43,062 nt of DNA from Dehalococcoidia bacterium (GTDB lineage: Bacteria; Chloroflexota; Dehalococcoidia; Lucifugimonadales; Lucifugimonadaceae): contig JAKUNJ010000007.1 of assembly GCA_022451965.1 (NCBI GenBank), positions 84,914 to 127,975 on the forward strand, read 5' to 3'. Below, piece by piece: positions 24,468 to 34,968 of the stretch. The position numbers and the translations under genes are program-made. Every line of letters starts with the position of its first letter. Position 1 is the first letter of the stretch. The notes beneath the pieces are model-generated. The model did no database searches. It had not been told where the DNA came from and saw nothing but the letters and a program-made list of their open reading frames with translations.

Positions 24468-25115
24468 ATGGGAAAAATTTCTGCGGCTAAGTCTGCTGGT
24501 TACTGTTTAATTTTTGGTCCAATAATTGCATTAATTTGCTTTTTCCTTCAACCGGGTGGTGTTCTTGGTATCGGAGGTTCGCCTGAAGCACTTGATTTTG
24601 CTCAAGGAATGAATATACTTGTCGAAAATTCAGAATTAGGAATTATTACTGCATTTCTAATTACAATTGGATTAATAAGTTTATTATCTGGACAAATGTA
24701 TTATATTCAAAGTATGCAAGATGGTAATGGTTTTGGAATTGGAAGAGTTGCTATTCCATTTTTCTTCGTGGCAGTTTTTGGTTGGGTAATAGCTAATGCT
24801 ATTGCTATTTCAACAGCATCTGAAGTGTTAAATTCAACTGATATGCTTGCTTTATCATCTGCAATTAATACTACTTCACTCTTTAGTTTTGGAGTAGGAG
24901 GATTATTTTTAGCATTAGCTGCATCAACAAGAGATGAAATAAATAAAAATATAACTTATTTTGCAGGAATAGCAGCTATTGTAGTTTTTGTTTTAGCATT
25001 TATTGGAGCCTTTGCTCCTGACCAATCTAACACTTTGCAAGCAATAGCGGGTTTATGCTTCATAATATACTCTATTTGGAGCATCCTAATAGGTAGAGTA
25101 ATGCTTTCTAAATAG
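24468..25115 (+). CDS. Six-helix membrane protein, unknown function (tandem pair, second)
   Basis: This 215-residue protein has about six hydrophobic segments (near 8-27, 56-77, 87-107, 122-146, 156-176, 185-206). It begins MGKISAAKSAGYCLIFGPII, comparable with the first segment of the preceding gene, and has a similar loop of about 28 residues before the second segment. It has a strong Shine-Dalgarno (AAGGAG) and lies 10 bases behind its neighbour. The family is not recognised and function is unknown. Co-translation suggests that both work together in the membrane. Confidence 0.6.
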   Translation: MGKISAAKSAGYCLIFGPIIALICFFLQPGGVLGIGGSPEALDFAQGMNILVENSELGIITAFLITIGLISLLSGQMYYIQSMQDGNGFGIGRVAIPFFFVAVFGWVIANAIAISTASEVLNSTDMLALSSAINTTSLFSFGVGGLFLALAASTRDEINKNITYFAGIAAIVVFVLAFIGAFAPDQSNTLQAIAGLCFIIYSIWSILIGRVMLSK

Positions 25116-25277
25116 TTATTTTTTATAAGTTTATTATTCTTATGATATAAGTAATACTTAAGTGATTATAGTGTTATATATTTTCAATAATTATTTAAAC
25201 AAATAATTAATTACTTAGATTCAATTCCATAAATGGTGTAATATTTTAAAAGATATATTTAAAAGAGGGGAAAATCT

Positions 25278-25451
25278 TTGAAAAATAAATCATTTTTTTA
25301 TTTGATGCTTGCAGCAGCAATAGTTCCATTTTTAGTCTCAGTTTATTTTTGGTTTTTTACTGACGGTAATGAAATGGAAGCTATTTTTGTAGGAATATGG
25401 GTACCATCCATATTAGCATTTGCAACACTTTTGCAGGTTACAAAGAGCTAA
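25278..25451 (+). CDS. Small two-helix membrane protein, 57 residues, TTG start
   Basis: TTG at 25278 is preceded at 7 bases by a very strong Shine-Dalgarno (AGAGGGG, 25264-25270); the TAA ends at 25451. Two hydrophobic segments (about 6-28 and 34-53) flank a short acidic turn (TDGNEMEA). The last base of the stop codon is the first base of the next start (TAATG), so the two small genes are translationally coupled. No family was recognised. The 162 bases upstream hold no other gene. Confidence 0.65.
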   Translation: MKNKSFFYLMLAAAIVPFLVSVYFWFFTDGNEMEAIFVGIWVPSILAFATLLQVTKS

Positions 25452-25564
25452 TGTCTTCAGAATTAATAGTCATACTAGCTTTTATTGTTGTATTAATATT
25501 TTTTGTTGGCGGTATATTTACAGTTCTAGAACTAGGGAAAACAGAAGAAAAAGCTAAAAAATAA
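25451..25564 (+). CDS. Tiny single-helix membrane protein, 37 residues
   Basis: The ATG at 25451 overlaps the stop of the 57-residue gene (TAATG); TAA ends at 25564. One hydrophobic segment (about 5-25, with FFVGGIF) is followed by a charged tail EKAKK. Size, single helix and coupling recall small accessory subunits of membrane complexes, but no family is recognised. Being read by re-initiation after the previous gene is the best support. Confidence 0.55.
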   Translation: MSSELIVILAFIVVLIFFVGGIFTVLELGKTEEKAKK

Positions 25565-25640
25565 AATGGACCATAGCCATTATTATCGTTCCAGAGAGAA
25601 CAAGAATGCCTATCAATATTAGTGGGTTTTTTTGTTCCAT
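25554..25640 (-). CDS. Possible tiny membrane peptide, 28 residues
   Basis: On the minus strand, ATG at 25640 runs to TAG at 25554-25556. The peptide begins MEQKNPLILIGIL and is one hydrophobic helix (about 6-28) after a polar start, a composition that would be unusual for random antisense sequence here. It overlaps the end of the 37-residue gene by 11 bases, convergently. There is no Shine-Dalgarno, and at this size chance cannot be excluded. The rest of the gap to 25773 shows no other gene. Confidence 0.35.
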   Translation of the reverse strand: MEQKNPLILIGILVLSGTIIMAMVHFIF

Positions 25641-25773
25641 AACTTAATTTTACAATTAATATTTTTTGTTAACTAACGATTAAGAATCATTATATGTAGA
25701 AAACTAAGTTAAAAAAAAATCGAAATTAATGTTTTAATATAATAAGTAAACAAAAAAATTCAAAGGATTTTTA

Positions 25774-26016
25774 ATGGATATATATGTTGGTAATTTACCT
25801 TGGAGCATAGATGACGAAGGATTAAAAAATCTATTCTCTGAACATGGTGACGTAATAAGTGCAAAAGTTATTACAGACAGAGATACAAACCGATCTAAGG
25901 GTTTTGGTTTTGTTGAAATGGATGATGACTCAGCTGAAAGTGCTATAAGTTCTCTAGACGGATCAGAAGTAGAGGGAAGAGCAATAAAGGTAAATAAATC
26001 TAAGGGTAAGAAATAA
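25774..26016 (+). CDS. RRM-type RNA-binding protein (first of two)
   Basis: This 80-residue protein is a single RNA recognition motif with a basic tail. RNP2 is IYVGNL (3-8) and RNP1 is SKGFGFVEM (about 42-50), and both carry the aromatic residues that stack on RNA bases. The tail ends KVNKSKGKK. Such small bacterial and cyanobacterial RRM proteins act as RNA chaperones, often in cold response. Shine-Dalgarno AAGGAT precedes the ATG. A close paralogue is at 31042 on the other strand; the two share most of the core sequence. Confidence 0.92.
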
Positions 26017-26179
26017 AAATCCACTTTTAATCTAGTTTATAATCTTGATCATTAGAAAATAATTTCAAAGTTTCACTATTATAATTAATCTCCTAAGATA
26101 ACTATTTTTATTTATTCTTAGTTAAGTGTTTTCATAATCATTTCTTAGTTTCTAAATATCTAATATAATCATTATCTAT

Positions 26180-31601: not shown

Positions 31602-32276
31602 TTACCAATTAATTTCTTTAATATTTTTTGACTTCAGATAATTGTTAGTTTTTGAAAAAGGCTTACTACCAAAAAATCCTCTGTGAGCAGATAAAGGGGA
31701 TGGGTGTACAGATTTCAAAATCAAGTGATCACAAACATCTATTTTTTCTATCTTTTTTTGAGCATGATTGCCCCATAGTATGAAAACTAAATTTTTTTTA
31801 TGTTTATTTAATATTTCTATCACTTTATCTGTGAATATATCCCATCCAATTTTACTATGTGATAAAGGTTTATTTTTTTCTACTGTTAGAGTTGTATTGA
31901 GTAGAAAAACACCTTGCTCAGCCCAGTTTTTTAAATTTCCTGTTTGATTTTTTTTTTCATAAGATAAATCTTTTTTTAGCTCCTTTAGAATATTTGTTAG
32001 AGAAGGAGGATTTGAAATATCATCATTAACTGAAAAGCAAAGTCCATTTGCCTGACCGGGACCATGGTAAGGATCCTGCCCTAAAATAACTACTTTTACA
32101 TCTTTAAAATCACAATAATTGAAAGCATTAAATATTTCAGATTTTTTGGGATAAATTTCCTTACCAGAATTATATGAATCTAATAAGAACTGTTTGATTT
32201 TAAGCATATATTCTTTTTCAAATTCATCTGCTAATTTCTCTTTCCATCCTTTTGGTAATCTTATTTTTTTTTTCAA
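31602..32276 (-). CDS. ung: Uracil-DNA glycosylase
   Basis: This 224-residue family 1 Ung has the water-activating motif GQDPYHGPGQANGLCFSV (66-83, Asp68), the SNPP-type NPPSLTNILKEL stretch and the minor-groove motif HPSPLSAHRGF near 191, with the catalytic His. It removes uracil from DNA, the first step of base excision repair. It starts 4 bases after the bioY stop, so the two are co-transcribed. xthA, which acts on the resulting abasic site, is on the other side of the putative regulator. Confidence 0.97.
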   Translation of the reverse strand: MKKKIRLPKGWKEKLADEFEKEYMLKIKQFLLDSYNSGKEIYPKKSEIFNAFNYCDFKDVKVVILGQDPYHGPGQANGLCFSVNDDISNPPSLTNILKELKKDLSYEKKNQTGNLKNWAEQGVFLLNTTLTVEKNKPLSHSKIGWDIFTDKVIEILNKHKKNLVFILWGNHAQKKIEKIDVCDHLILKSVHPSPLSAHRGFFGSKPFSKTNNYLKSKNIKEINW

Positions 32277-32280
32277 TACT

Positions 32281-32886
32281 TTATTTTTTATAAAGATAAT
32301 TTTTTAAGTTTGAATAACTTATTCCCATAGTTAACATCGAAGCAACTATAGCCTTAATCATATCGCCAATTAAGAAAGGGTATACTGCTTGAGATAAAAG
32401 CTCACCTTTATCTGGCCAACCAAAATCAAAAATAGAAAGCCAAATTAATGCTGGAATATATACAGCCATAGTCCCTACAATATATGCCCAGATACTTTTA
32501 GAACCACTTAATCCTTTGCTGACTAGTAATCCGACTAAAAGTGATGAAAGAACAAATCCTATTAAGTATCCACCAGTTACACCAATAGAGTAGTTCCATC
32601 CTCCATTTCCTCCCTGAAAGACAGGTAAGCCTGCTAATCCTATAAATATGTATCCTAGTGAAGCAGAAAAGCCCCATTTGGGTCCCAGAATACCACCCAT
32701 TAGTAATATTCCCATAGTTTGAAATGTTATTGGAACGGGATTTCCTGGAATAAAAAACCTAAATTGAGCGAATAAACCAGTAAGAAAAATCAACAAAATT
32801 GAAATAAAAAGCTTAACTAATACTGATCTATCGCTAACAATAAGATTAGATTTTTTTATAGTATTTGAATTTTTGTTAATTTTCAA
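32281..32886 (-). CDS. bioY: Biotin transporter BioY (ECF substrate-binding membrane subunit)
   Basis: This is about 200 residues with six membrane segments. FFIPGNPVPITFQTMGILLMGGILGPKWG is the BioY hallmark, followed by GLAGLPVFQGG and a GGYLIGF helix. It brings biotin across the membrane alone or with an ECF energising module, which is not seen here. The only in-frame non-AUU start is TTG (complement of 32884-32886), but the AAGGAGT Shine-Dalgarno ends right next to it. An ATT two codons later has ideal 7-base spacing, so the start is uncertain. No BirA-type site was recognised. Confidence 0.92.
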   Translation of the reverse strand: MKINKNSNTIKKSNLIVSDRSVLVKLFISILLIFLTGLFAQFRFFIPGNPVPITFQTMGILLMGGILGPKWGFSASLGYIFIGLAGLPVFQGGNGGWNYSIGVTGGYLIGFVLSSLLVGLLVSKGLSGSKSIWAYIVGTMAVYIPALIWLSIFDFGWPDKGELLSQAVYPFLIGDMIKAIVASMLTMGISYSNLKNYLYKK

Positions 32887-32939
32887 ACTCCTTGAGTAAA
32901 TTAAATTTATAATTATGATACGCTCATTTTAATAGTTTT

Positions 32940-33974
32940 TTATCTAAAATAACCTGCAAGTTTATCATTTAATAAATCTCTTTTAACAATTTTTTTGTTT
33001 TTATTGATTCTAGAAATTTCATTTCTAAGTTTTGCTAGTGACTTTTTTGAAATTTGCCAAGATAAGATGAATGCTGAAGGCATTGACTTGAGTATATCTT
33101 TTTCAATACTAGGTAAAATCTTTATTCTTTCTTTGATTGTTAAGTTTGTAGATCTTACAATTGTTTGCTTATCTATGAAACCTCCATCAGAATCCATCAT
33201 ATGAAAAAAATCAAAGAAATCATTTTTAGATAATTTAGGGGTATTAGATTTTTTTTCAAATAAGGATTTATTTATTTGATAAGATTCTTCCGATGAAAAC
33301 CCCAAATCTTTAGTTAATTTAGTTATATGATGAAATAATAATTCTTCATTCATAAAAAAGCTTAGTGAAAAAATTTCTTCTAAAGTAGGGTTTACTGCAA
33401 AAAGTGGAGTAGTTTTACAGAATTGGTAGCCTATTTGAGTTTCGATAACCTCTTTATTGTAAGTAGGGTAATATTTGAATTTTTGATCCTCCGATAAAAA
33501 AATTGTAATAAAAGCAGCAATCTTAAGAAGTACATTTTTATTAGTTATAGTTCTTTCACCATTAAGGTATCTGTAAAATTGCCTTTCATTTACATTGAAG
33601 TCCTCATAAAAAAAGTTTCTCAACTCGTCTGTTTGGTCGTAAATATACTTGAATATAAAAGATTGAGACTCTGCAATAAAGATCTTTTTTAATTTATTTT
33701 TATTTACCTTTATTATTTTTATCTGCTTGCCCCCTATATTTGATACAGGAAAGATATTATTCAAATTAGATACCGCACCTCTTATTGACCTCCTGGTGAC
33801 TTTTCCATCAGCTTTAGATTCTACAAGCTCTATAACTTCTCTATATTTAGCCTTATCCCCAAGTGAAATAGCGGTAAAGAGAGCAATCATACTAACCAGC
33901 TCCCTTTTTTCATGGGAAGTTCCATCTGAAAAAGCAGTTTTTTTATATGAAAATATGGTTTTTTTATTATGCAT
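32940..33974 (-). CDS. Putative DNA-binding regulator of unknown family
   Basis: This 344-residue protein has no match I recognise over its length. Residues about 25-90 have the pattern of a winged helix-turn-helix (YREVIELVESKADGKVTRRSIRGAV, then a GGKQIKIIKV wing-like strand pair). Residues about 126-152 (NVNERQFYRYLNGERTITNKNVLLKIA) resemble an XRE-type helix-turn-helix with the typical YLNGER turn. The rest is helical, possibly for dimerisation or sensing. It ends 53 bases before bioY-ung and is divergent from xthA across a promoter region with repeated sequence boxes, a setting typical of a local autoregulator. Start ATG at 33974, without Shine-Dalgarno. Confidence 0.55.
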   Translation of the reverse strand: MHNKKTIFSYKKTAFSDGTSHEKRELVSMIALFTAISLGDKAKYREVIELVESKADGKVTRRSIRGAVSNLNNIFPVSNIGGKQIKIIKVNKNKLKKIFIAESQSFIFKYIYDQTDELRNFFYEDFNVNERQFYRYLNGERTITNKNVLLKIAAFITIFLSEDQKFKYYPTYNKEVIETQIGYQFCKTTPLFAVNPTLEEIFSLSFFMNEELLFHHITKLTKDLGFSSEESYQINKSLFEKKSNTPKLSKNDFFDFFHMMDSDGGFIDKQTIVRSTNLTIKERIKILPSIEKDILKSMPSAFILSWQISKKSLAKLRNEISRINKNKKIVKRDLLNDKLAGYFR

Positions 33975-34011
33975 AATTATTTTATAAATTGTCTATTTAT
34001 TAAAAATTATA

Positions 34012-34039
34012 CTTATATATTACATTATATTTAAGTCAA
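34012..34039 (-). promoter_or_regulatory. Promoter candidate of the putative regulator gene
   Basis: On the minus strand, TTGACT (34039 to 34034) and TATAAG (34017 to 34012) are separated by 16 bases. Transcription would start near 34005, about 30 bases before the ATG. The -35 box lies in the first copy of a repeated decamer (34029-34038), so a bound protein there would block it. Confidence 0.5.
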
Positions 34040-34060
34040 TAAAAAATATTATTTAAGTCA
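34029..34060. repeat. Two direct copies of ATTTAAGTCA, 22 bases apart
   Basis: Exact copies occur at 34029-34038 and 34051-34060. The 22-base period is about two turns of the helix, so both would face the same side of the DNA. The first overlaps the candidate -35 box of the regulator gene. Confidence 0.6.
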
Positions 34061-34061
34061 G

Positions 34062-34128
34062 TTTTGGTCAAAAAAAATAGATTTTTAGAGCACTAAGCTT
34101 TCTTAATTGATAAATTTTTTGGTCAAAA
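34062..34128. promoter_or_regulatory. Two exact copies of the near-palindrome TTTTGGTCAAAA
   Basis: The 12-base box occurs at 34062-34073 and 34117-34128. It consists of TTTTG and CAAAA half-sites around a central GT. Both lie between the divergent promoters of the regulator and xthA and are good operator candidates. The binding protein is not known; the adjacent regulator is the natural candidate. Confidence 0.55.
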
Positions 34129-34152
34129 TCATTAGTGTAGTCTGAATTATAT

Positions 34153-34180
34153 TTTGTATTTTCTTATTTAAAAATATAAT
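34153..34180 (+). promoter_or_regulatory. Promoter candidate of xthA
   Basis: TTTGTA (34153-34158) and a consensus TATAAT (34175-34180) are separated by 16 bases, some 33 bases before the ATG at 34213. The -35 box is weak, which would fit a regulated promoter. Confidence 0.45.
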
Positions 34181-34212
34181 GTAAATAAATTATTGAAAAA
34201 AGGACCGGGTAT

Positions 34213-34968
34213 ATGAAGATAGTATCTTGGAATGTTAATGGAATAAGAGCATGCCTTAAAAAGGATTTTATGATATTTTTTGAGAATTCAGATGCTGATT
34301 TATTCTGCATTCAGGAAACTAAAGCTCAATCTTCGCAAGTAGAAATTAATACTCCTGGCTATTCTCAATTTTGGTATAGTGCTGAAAAGAAAGGTTACTC
34401 TGGTACCTTGATATTTGCCAAGAACAAACCATTGAATTCTATATATGGGCTTGGTATAGACAAACATGATAATGAGGGAAGAGTAATAACTTTAGAATAT
34501 GAATCTTTTTATTTAGTTACTGTTTATACTCCTAATTCAAAGAGAGATTTATCTAGACTGCCATATAGAGAAAATGAATGGGATGTTGACTTTTTGAGCT
34601 ACATTAAGGAATTAGAGAAATTTAAGCCAGTAATTTTTTGTGGGGACTTAAATGTCGCGCATAAAGAAATTGATCTAAAAAATCCCAAATCAAATGAACG
34701 TAATGCTGGATTTACAAAGGAAGAAAGAAAAGGTTTTGACAATATAGTTGCAGAAGGATTTATAGATACTTTTAGAAAATTCAACCAGAATAGTGATAAC
34801 TATACTTGGTGGAGTTATATGGGAGGATCAAGGGCGAGAAATGTAGGTTGGAGGATTGACTATTTCTGTATATCTAAATCACTAGAAAATAAACTTATTT
34901 CTGCAGATATTCATGCTGATGTTTTAGGTTCAGATCATTGCCCAGTAAGTATTGAAATAAATTTGTAG
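34213..34968 (+). CDS. xthA: Exodeoxyribonuclease III (AP endonuclease)
   Basis: This 251-residue member of the endonuclease/exonuclease/phosphatase fold has SWNVNGIRA (5-13), the metal-binding IQETKAQ (Glu near 35), GDLNVAHKEIDL with catalytic Asp and Asn, RNAGFT, the WRIDYF strand and a terminal GSDHCPV with Asp-His. It cuts DNA 5' to abasic sites and trims 3' blocks, the step after Ung. AAGGA lies upstream of the ATG at a slightly long spacing. It starts the operon xthA, DUF255 gene, trmL. Confidence 0.96.
   Translation: MKIVSWNVNGIRACLKKDFMIFFENSDADLFCIQETKAQSSQVEINTPGYSQFWYSAEKKGYSGTLIFAKNKPLNSIYGLGIDKHDNEGRVITLEYESFYLVTVYTPNSKRDLSRLPYRENEWDVDFLSYIKELEKFKPVIFCGDLNVAHKEIDLKNPKSNERNAGFTKEERKGFDNIVAEGFIDTFRKFNQNSDNYTWWSYMGGSRARNVGWRIDYFCISKSLENKLISADIHADVLGSDHCPVSIEINL

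Follow-up and report, generated by a model that had tools for sequence, protein, structure and literature searches.

The 238-bp spacer between a predicted 344-aa regulator and a divergently oriented xthA-like gene carries conserved boxes with the consensus TTTnGTCAAAA in the aligned spacers of nine genomes of the genus. On comparative sequence evidence, we consider it rather likely that these boxes are copies of one operator for the adjacent regulator, which would act chiefly, if not exclusively, at this divergent promoter. An earlier note on this DNA had interpreted the repeats in the spacer as an array of binding sites with autoregulation. That interpretation stands as the best reading, given the conservation of the boxes and their co-occurrence with the regulator gene; the binding itself is what we infer.

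The stretch of DNA analysed here (the window, 43,062 nucleotides) belongs to a 1.25-Mb genome of a marine, SAR202-type member of the Chloroflexota. The regulator lies on the minus strand (32940-33974, from the list of open reading frames), with bioY (32281-32886) and then a uracil-DNA glycosylase gene (ung, 31602-32276) behind it on the same strand. The xthA-like gene, which belongs to the PF03372 endonuclease/exonuclease/phosphatase family, occupies 34213-34968 on the plus strand and is followed on that strand by a DUF255/thioredoxin-like gene. The spacer itself (33975-34212) is 83% A+T. The regulator was found in all nine genomes of the genus, and in every one of them it diverges from xthA out of a single spacer. 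The order of the five genes (ung, bioY, regulator, xthA, DUF255/thioredoxin-like) is the same in all eight relatives compared, and genes for consecutive steps of base excision repair (ung and the xthA-like gene, 31602-34968) flank the regulator on opposite strands. The gap between bioY and ung is about 1 kb in two of these relatives (L020 and L021) and shorter than 20 bases in the other six. Elsewhere in the window, about 1.07 kb (25113-26179) holds no kept reading frame of at least 100 aa, and the rest is dense. Rfam, searched at the gathering score, returned no match anywhere in the window, this gap included, and the reading as an RNA element was dropped for that reason. A replication origin was also dropped as a candidate, since the GC skew tracks the gene strand and shows no lasting turn at the locus.

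Both exact repeats described previously are present on the plus strand. The decamer ATTTAAGTCA is found at 34029-34038 and 34051-34060, 22 bases apart, and the 12-mer TTTTGGTCAAAA at 34062-34073 and 34117-34128, 55 bases apart. They had been taken for two different elements, a reading that we reject, since the three conserved boxes can be aligned to a single motif and most of the second decamer copy varies. Box 1 (34029-34041, core GTCAA at 34035-34039) corresponds to the first decamer copy, whose end forms the box; box 2 is the first copy of the 12-mer and box 3 the second. The core of box 1 reads GTCAA in eight of the nine genomes and GACAA in the ninth. Box 2 keeps GTC in all nine, as GTCAA in six, GTCGA in two and GTCAT in one. 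Box 3 has GTCAA in six genomes and is missing from G006, G007 and G008. Over the 24 aligned boxes the G and C of the core are invariant and its T occurs in 23; in the flanks, T at -3 is present in all 24 and A at +5, +6 and +7 in 19, 21 and 18, respectively. Box 1 and box 2 lie 32 bp apart in 9/9 genomes, gap-free in the alignment, and box 2 and box 3 are separated by 55 bp in four genomes and 56 bp in two. Conservation in relatives, on which the earlier interpretation depended, is thus observed for the end of the first decamer and the first 12-mer (9/9) and for the second 12-mer in 6/9, and not for the second decamer. All these counts come from nine genomes of a single genus, some of them close relatives, so that they are not independent.

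The conservation is concentrated in the cores. Of 234 alignment windows, 2 are at least as well conserved as the core of box 1 and 5 at least as well as the core of box 2, their own windows counted. Over the full length of the boxes, conservation is only moderate (14 of 226 windows match box 1 and 20 of 227 match box 2). Judged by alignment columns box 3 is unconserved, with 72 of 227 windows as good; its conservation is that seen in ungapped comparison, the alignment program failing to line it up in all six genomes. In the second decamer copy, T34052 and C34059 are invariant, A34060 is kept in 8/9 and the remainder is variable. Its terminal CA abuts box 2, and without this CA its conservation is 0.694 against 0.671 for the spacer, with 99 of 231 windows equal or better.

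Read on the minus strand the boxes contain TTGAC, and they could instead be promoter elements. In that case the regulator would be transcribed from tandem minus-strand promoters with boxes 1 and 2 as their -35 elements (TTGACN), kept for RNA polymerase, and box 3 would be a relic or part of another start. Consistent with this alternative, a TAxxxT hexamer spaced 17 bp from box 2 on the minus strand is present in 6/9 genomes (third best of 161 offsets, z 2.9), and a weak one spaced 17 bp from box 1 in 4/9 (fifth of 161). However, the best conserved -10 among the 161 offsets (z 3.9) is a probable -10 of the regulator promoter on the minus strand (TAATAT, 34017-34022), with TA in 9/9, TAxxxT in 8/9 and T34021 and A34022 invariant. 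Only 11 bp separate it from the TTGAC in box 1, which places box 1 more likely inside the regulator core promoter than at its -35. The claim that the first decamer covers the -35 of the regulator is therefore doubtful, the 17-bp hexamer being present in just 4/9 genomes and the 11-bp one in 8/9. Box 1 probably lies within the predicted core promoter, the usual place for a repressor, but box 2 may be a -35. The conserved flanks (T at -3, A at +5 to +7) also extend past a -35, albeit in A+T-rich DNA, no -10 is found 17 bp from box 3, and tandem promoters would have no need of a fixed 32-bp spacing. On balance we regard the explanation by -35 elements as unlikely.

On the xthA side of the spacer, a probable -10 (TATAAT, 34175-34180, plus strand) is accompanied by a weak -35, and TATAAT is found 38-42 bp before the ATG in four of the nine genomes. 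In three of these four, box 3 is found some 65 bp upstream of the presumed xthA start, a position that would suit an activator or looping. Box 3 directly precedes TTGACA in G002 and G005, so the xthA side is not uniform; nor is the control of xthA expected to be, since box 3 is missing in 3/9. Close to the regulator, AAATTGTC at 33986-33993 includes an AATTG (33987-33991) that is invariant in 9/9 genomes and located 12-19 nt before the start codon. The minus-strand reading of this site is (G/A)(A/T)CAATT, and it is possibly a fourth box in inverted orientation or else an element of the 5' leader.

The strict 32-bp pair is nearly unique to this locus. Across the nine whole genomes it has seven matches, five at the regulator-xthA locus and two elsewhere (L048 and L049), and the reversed control has two; the four genomes with no strict match here owe this to a one-base change in box 1 or box 2. 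Exact TTTTGGTCAAAA occurs five times in the window's genome, against two for the reversed control, twice at the locus and three times inside reading frames. The density of sites is likewise high in the spacer, with 3 in 238 bp; the remaining intergenic DNA of the window, 3018 bp in all, has 2. The strict box TTNGTCAAAA has 50 matches in the window's genome and 46 in the reversed control, and is thus not enriched genome-wide; over the nine genomes, TTTNGTCAAAAA has 74 matches against 51 for its own reversed control. Among the 50 matches of TTNGTCAAAA, 46 fall in reading frames encoding 100 aa or more, two are boxes 2 and 3, and two are other noncoding sites. Of these last, L081 is located where two genes converge with their 3' ends, and L068 at a same-strand junction of genes that we read as argG and argH. 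A search for both boxes upstream of other repair genes had been suggested. No further clear promoter with the strict box turned up in the window's genome, and we reject a repair regulon for this pattern there, as only two matches are noncoding and off the locus and neither is at a clear promoter. The window's own box 1 fails the strict pattern, so weaker sites may be missed by such a search.

These results also bear on whether the boxes might be operators for some other regulator that acts in trans and controls the divergon by coincidence. DNA binding by the adjacent protein is predicted, and most of that protein has no confident relative, which leaves room for such a factor. Against it, no other clear strict-box promoter was found in the window's genome, and the boxes and the regulator gene travel together in the compared loci. 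We find this distinctly improbable.

Upstream DNA was compared at five of the 11 xthA matches outside the genus (L032-L035 and L039). Four of these (L032-L035) are sister-genus loci in genomes with no match to the regulator, and they contain no GTCAA/TTGAC in the gap before xthA. An opposite-strand reading frame opens 32-73 bp before xthA in these loci, and in two of them (L034 and L035) pentamers are found farther upstream, within that frame. The fifth locus (L039), from another family and also lacking the regulator, has TTGAC in the gap before xthA, at -191, with further copies upstream, which means that a lone TTGAC is not specific.

The earlier note had judged the repeats unlikely to arise by chance, which we estimated from 3000 dinucleotide shuffles of the 238-bp intergenic sequence. 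A repeated 12-mer of any kind appeared in 174 shuffles and one with at least three G/C in 4, so the 12-mer pair is unusual as claimed; the decamer pair is weak in this respect, with a repeated 10-mer of any kind in 1161 shuffles and one with at least two G/C in 100. A 12-mer repeat together with a 10-mer repeat sharing no common 6-mer was obtained in 46 of the 3000. In the nine spacers of the genus, GTCAA/TTGAC occurs 26 times; 500 sets of shuffled spacers contained 3.1 on average and never more than 9. Chance repeats within a spacer of 83% A+T, to which the frequency of 10-mer repeats in shuffles and the variability of the second decamer copy would point, are very improbable as the general explanation, already disfavoured by cores of boxes 1 and 2 that are kept in nine genomes with regulators down to 52% identity with the window's, and probably account for the second decamer copy alone.

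The regulator is present in 9 of 250 genomes of the order that were searched, namely all nine of this genus and none of the 241 others. The window's protein matched no Pfam family at E 1, and over the nine members the sole Pfam match was RPN1_RPN2_N in one member (E 0.00013). The best NCBIfam match had E 0.0053 (one member), the best PDB sequence E 0.28, and Foldseek gave nothing at E ≤0.001 for either model. Two origins or roles were considered and rejected: a phage source, as none of 106 pattern stretches in viral_contigs was confirmed and PHROGs matches were weak (E 0.014 at best; a single member matched one HTH family, at E 0.054), and a defence protein, as PADLOC had no match at E 1.

The AlphaFold2 model of the regulator has a mean pLDDT of 77.8, and its residues 20-90 follow the order helix-strand-helix-helix-strand-strand. 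The protein is predicted to consist of a winged helix at about residues 17-92, a possible second HTH at about 102-160 and a helical C-terminal part. In structure comparison the best winged-helix match was a cullin domain (Z 9.2, 73 residues, 2.5 Å), and MecI (2d45_B) scored Z 7.3 (69 residues, 2.6 Å); many of the proteins matched through the winged helix are not regulators, and those ranked highest include cullin and MCM domains. For residues 96-344 the sole row above Z 3 was PrgX, a weak match (Z 4.1, 57 residues of the N-terminal 60 of PrgX, 3.0 Å) that gives a weak hint of a second HTH, and no Pfam HTH model matched the regulator fragments tested. Near the C-terminus, KRDLLNDKLA (32943-33000) is invariant in nine regulators that are 52-75% identical to the window's, which suggests a functional tail. 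We raise only tentatively, as a doubtful idea, that the neighbour founds an undescribed family of two-headed regulators (a winged helix and an XRE-like HTH with a helical sensor), associated with one bidirectional promoter through which the ung and xthA steps would be coupled.

If the boxes are operators of this protein, the regulator would bind box 1 within its own core promoter, between -35 and -10, and shut the promoter, resulting in autorepression that would also lower bioY and ung should these be cotranscribed with it. Box 2, about three helical turns from box 1, would receive a second molecule on the same face of the DNA, and box 3, where present, would reach toward xthA and allow the regulator to modulate it. 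From the arrangement of boxes and genes we infer the binding by the 344-aa protein, the sign of control, the cotranscription of bioY and ung in an operon and the sensing of a signal. In favour of an autoregulatory operator, which we hold to be the best reading, we count the conservation of the core over 24 boxes, the excess of GTCAA/TTGAC, the rarity of the strict pair and of the 12-mer, and the density of sites in the spacer. The confinement of the regulator to the genus, the site-free xthA gaps of the four sister-genus loci, the winged-helix model and the -10 at 11 bp point the same way. Against it we count the asymmetry of the boxes, which is unlike the usual dyad of a dimer, the absence of box 3 in 3/9, the TAxxxT 17 bp from box 2 in 6/9 and the moderate full-length conservation, as well as the lack of enrichment of TTNGTCAAAA, the TTGAC of L039, counts drawn from one genus and the non-regulators among the winged-helix matches.

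At the level of search results, the literature on SAR202 transcriptional regulation and DNA repair yielded nothing on this locus or regulator. The repeat pair becomes a testable operator with a known spacing, and a likely DNA-binding protein without a Pfam family is named for it. If the operator is real, base excision repair in this lineage would be under a dedicated local switch and not part of a broad regulon.

BlaI/MecI with blaZ/mecA offer a known parallel, in which a winged-helix repressor acts locally on a divergent promoter and regulates its own gene. As in those systems, the regulator gene here diverges from its presumed target, repeated boxes occupy the spacer, one of them overlapping the predicted regulator core promoter, and structure comparison of the winged helix retrieved MecI/BlaI, among others. 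Unlike the MecI/BlaI chains of about 120 aa, the protein described here is 344 aa long and ends in a large helical part; the boxes lack symmetry and repeat directly at 32 bp, and the divergent gene is a repair gene. The winged-helix fold of MecI/BlaI is found in the model, a fold common to many families, and no penicillinase-repressor Pfam model matched over the nine members, the NCBIfam MecI model matching one member at E 0.071. PrgX belongs with the Rgg-type regulators. It ranks first among the structures matching residues 96-344 and, as in PrgX, helices follow; the match is weak, however, a winged helix precedes it in the window's protein, and Pfam HTH models gave no match in the fragments tested. 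Two sequence features of an autoregulated divergent operon are found here, with divergence kept in 9/9 genomes and repeated, conserved boxes of which one overlaps the predicted core promoter of the regulator. The locus represents a common type of regulatory arrangement, under a predicted regulator that is confined to the genus and belongs to no Pfam family.
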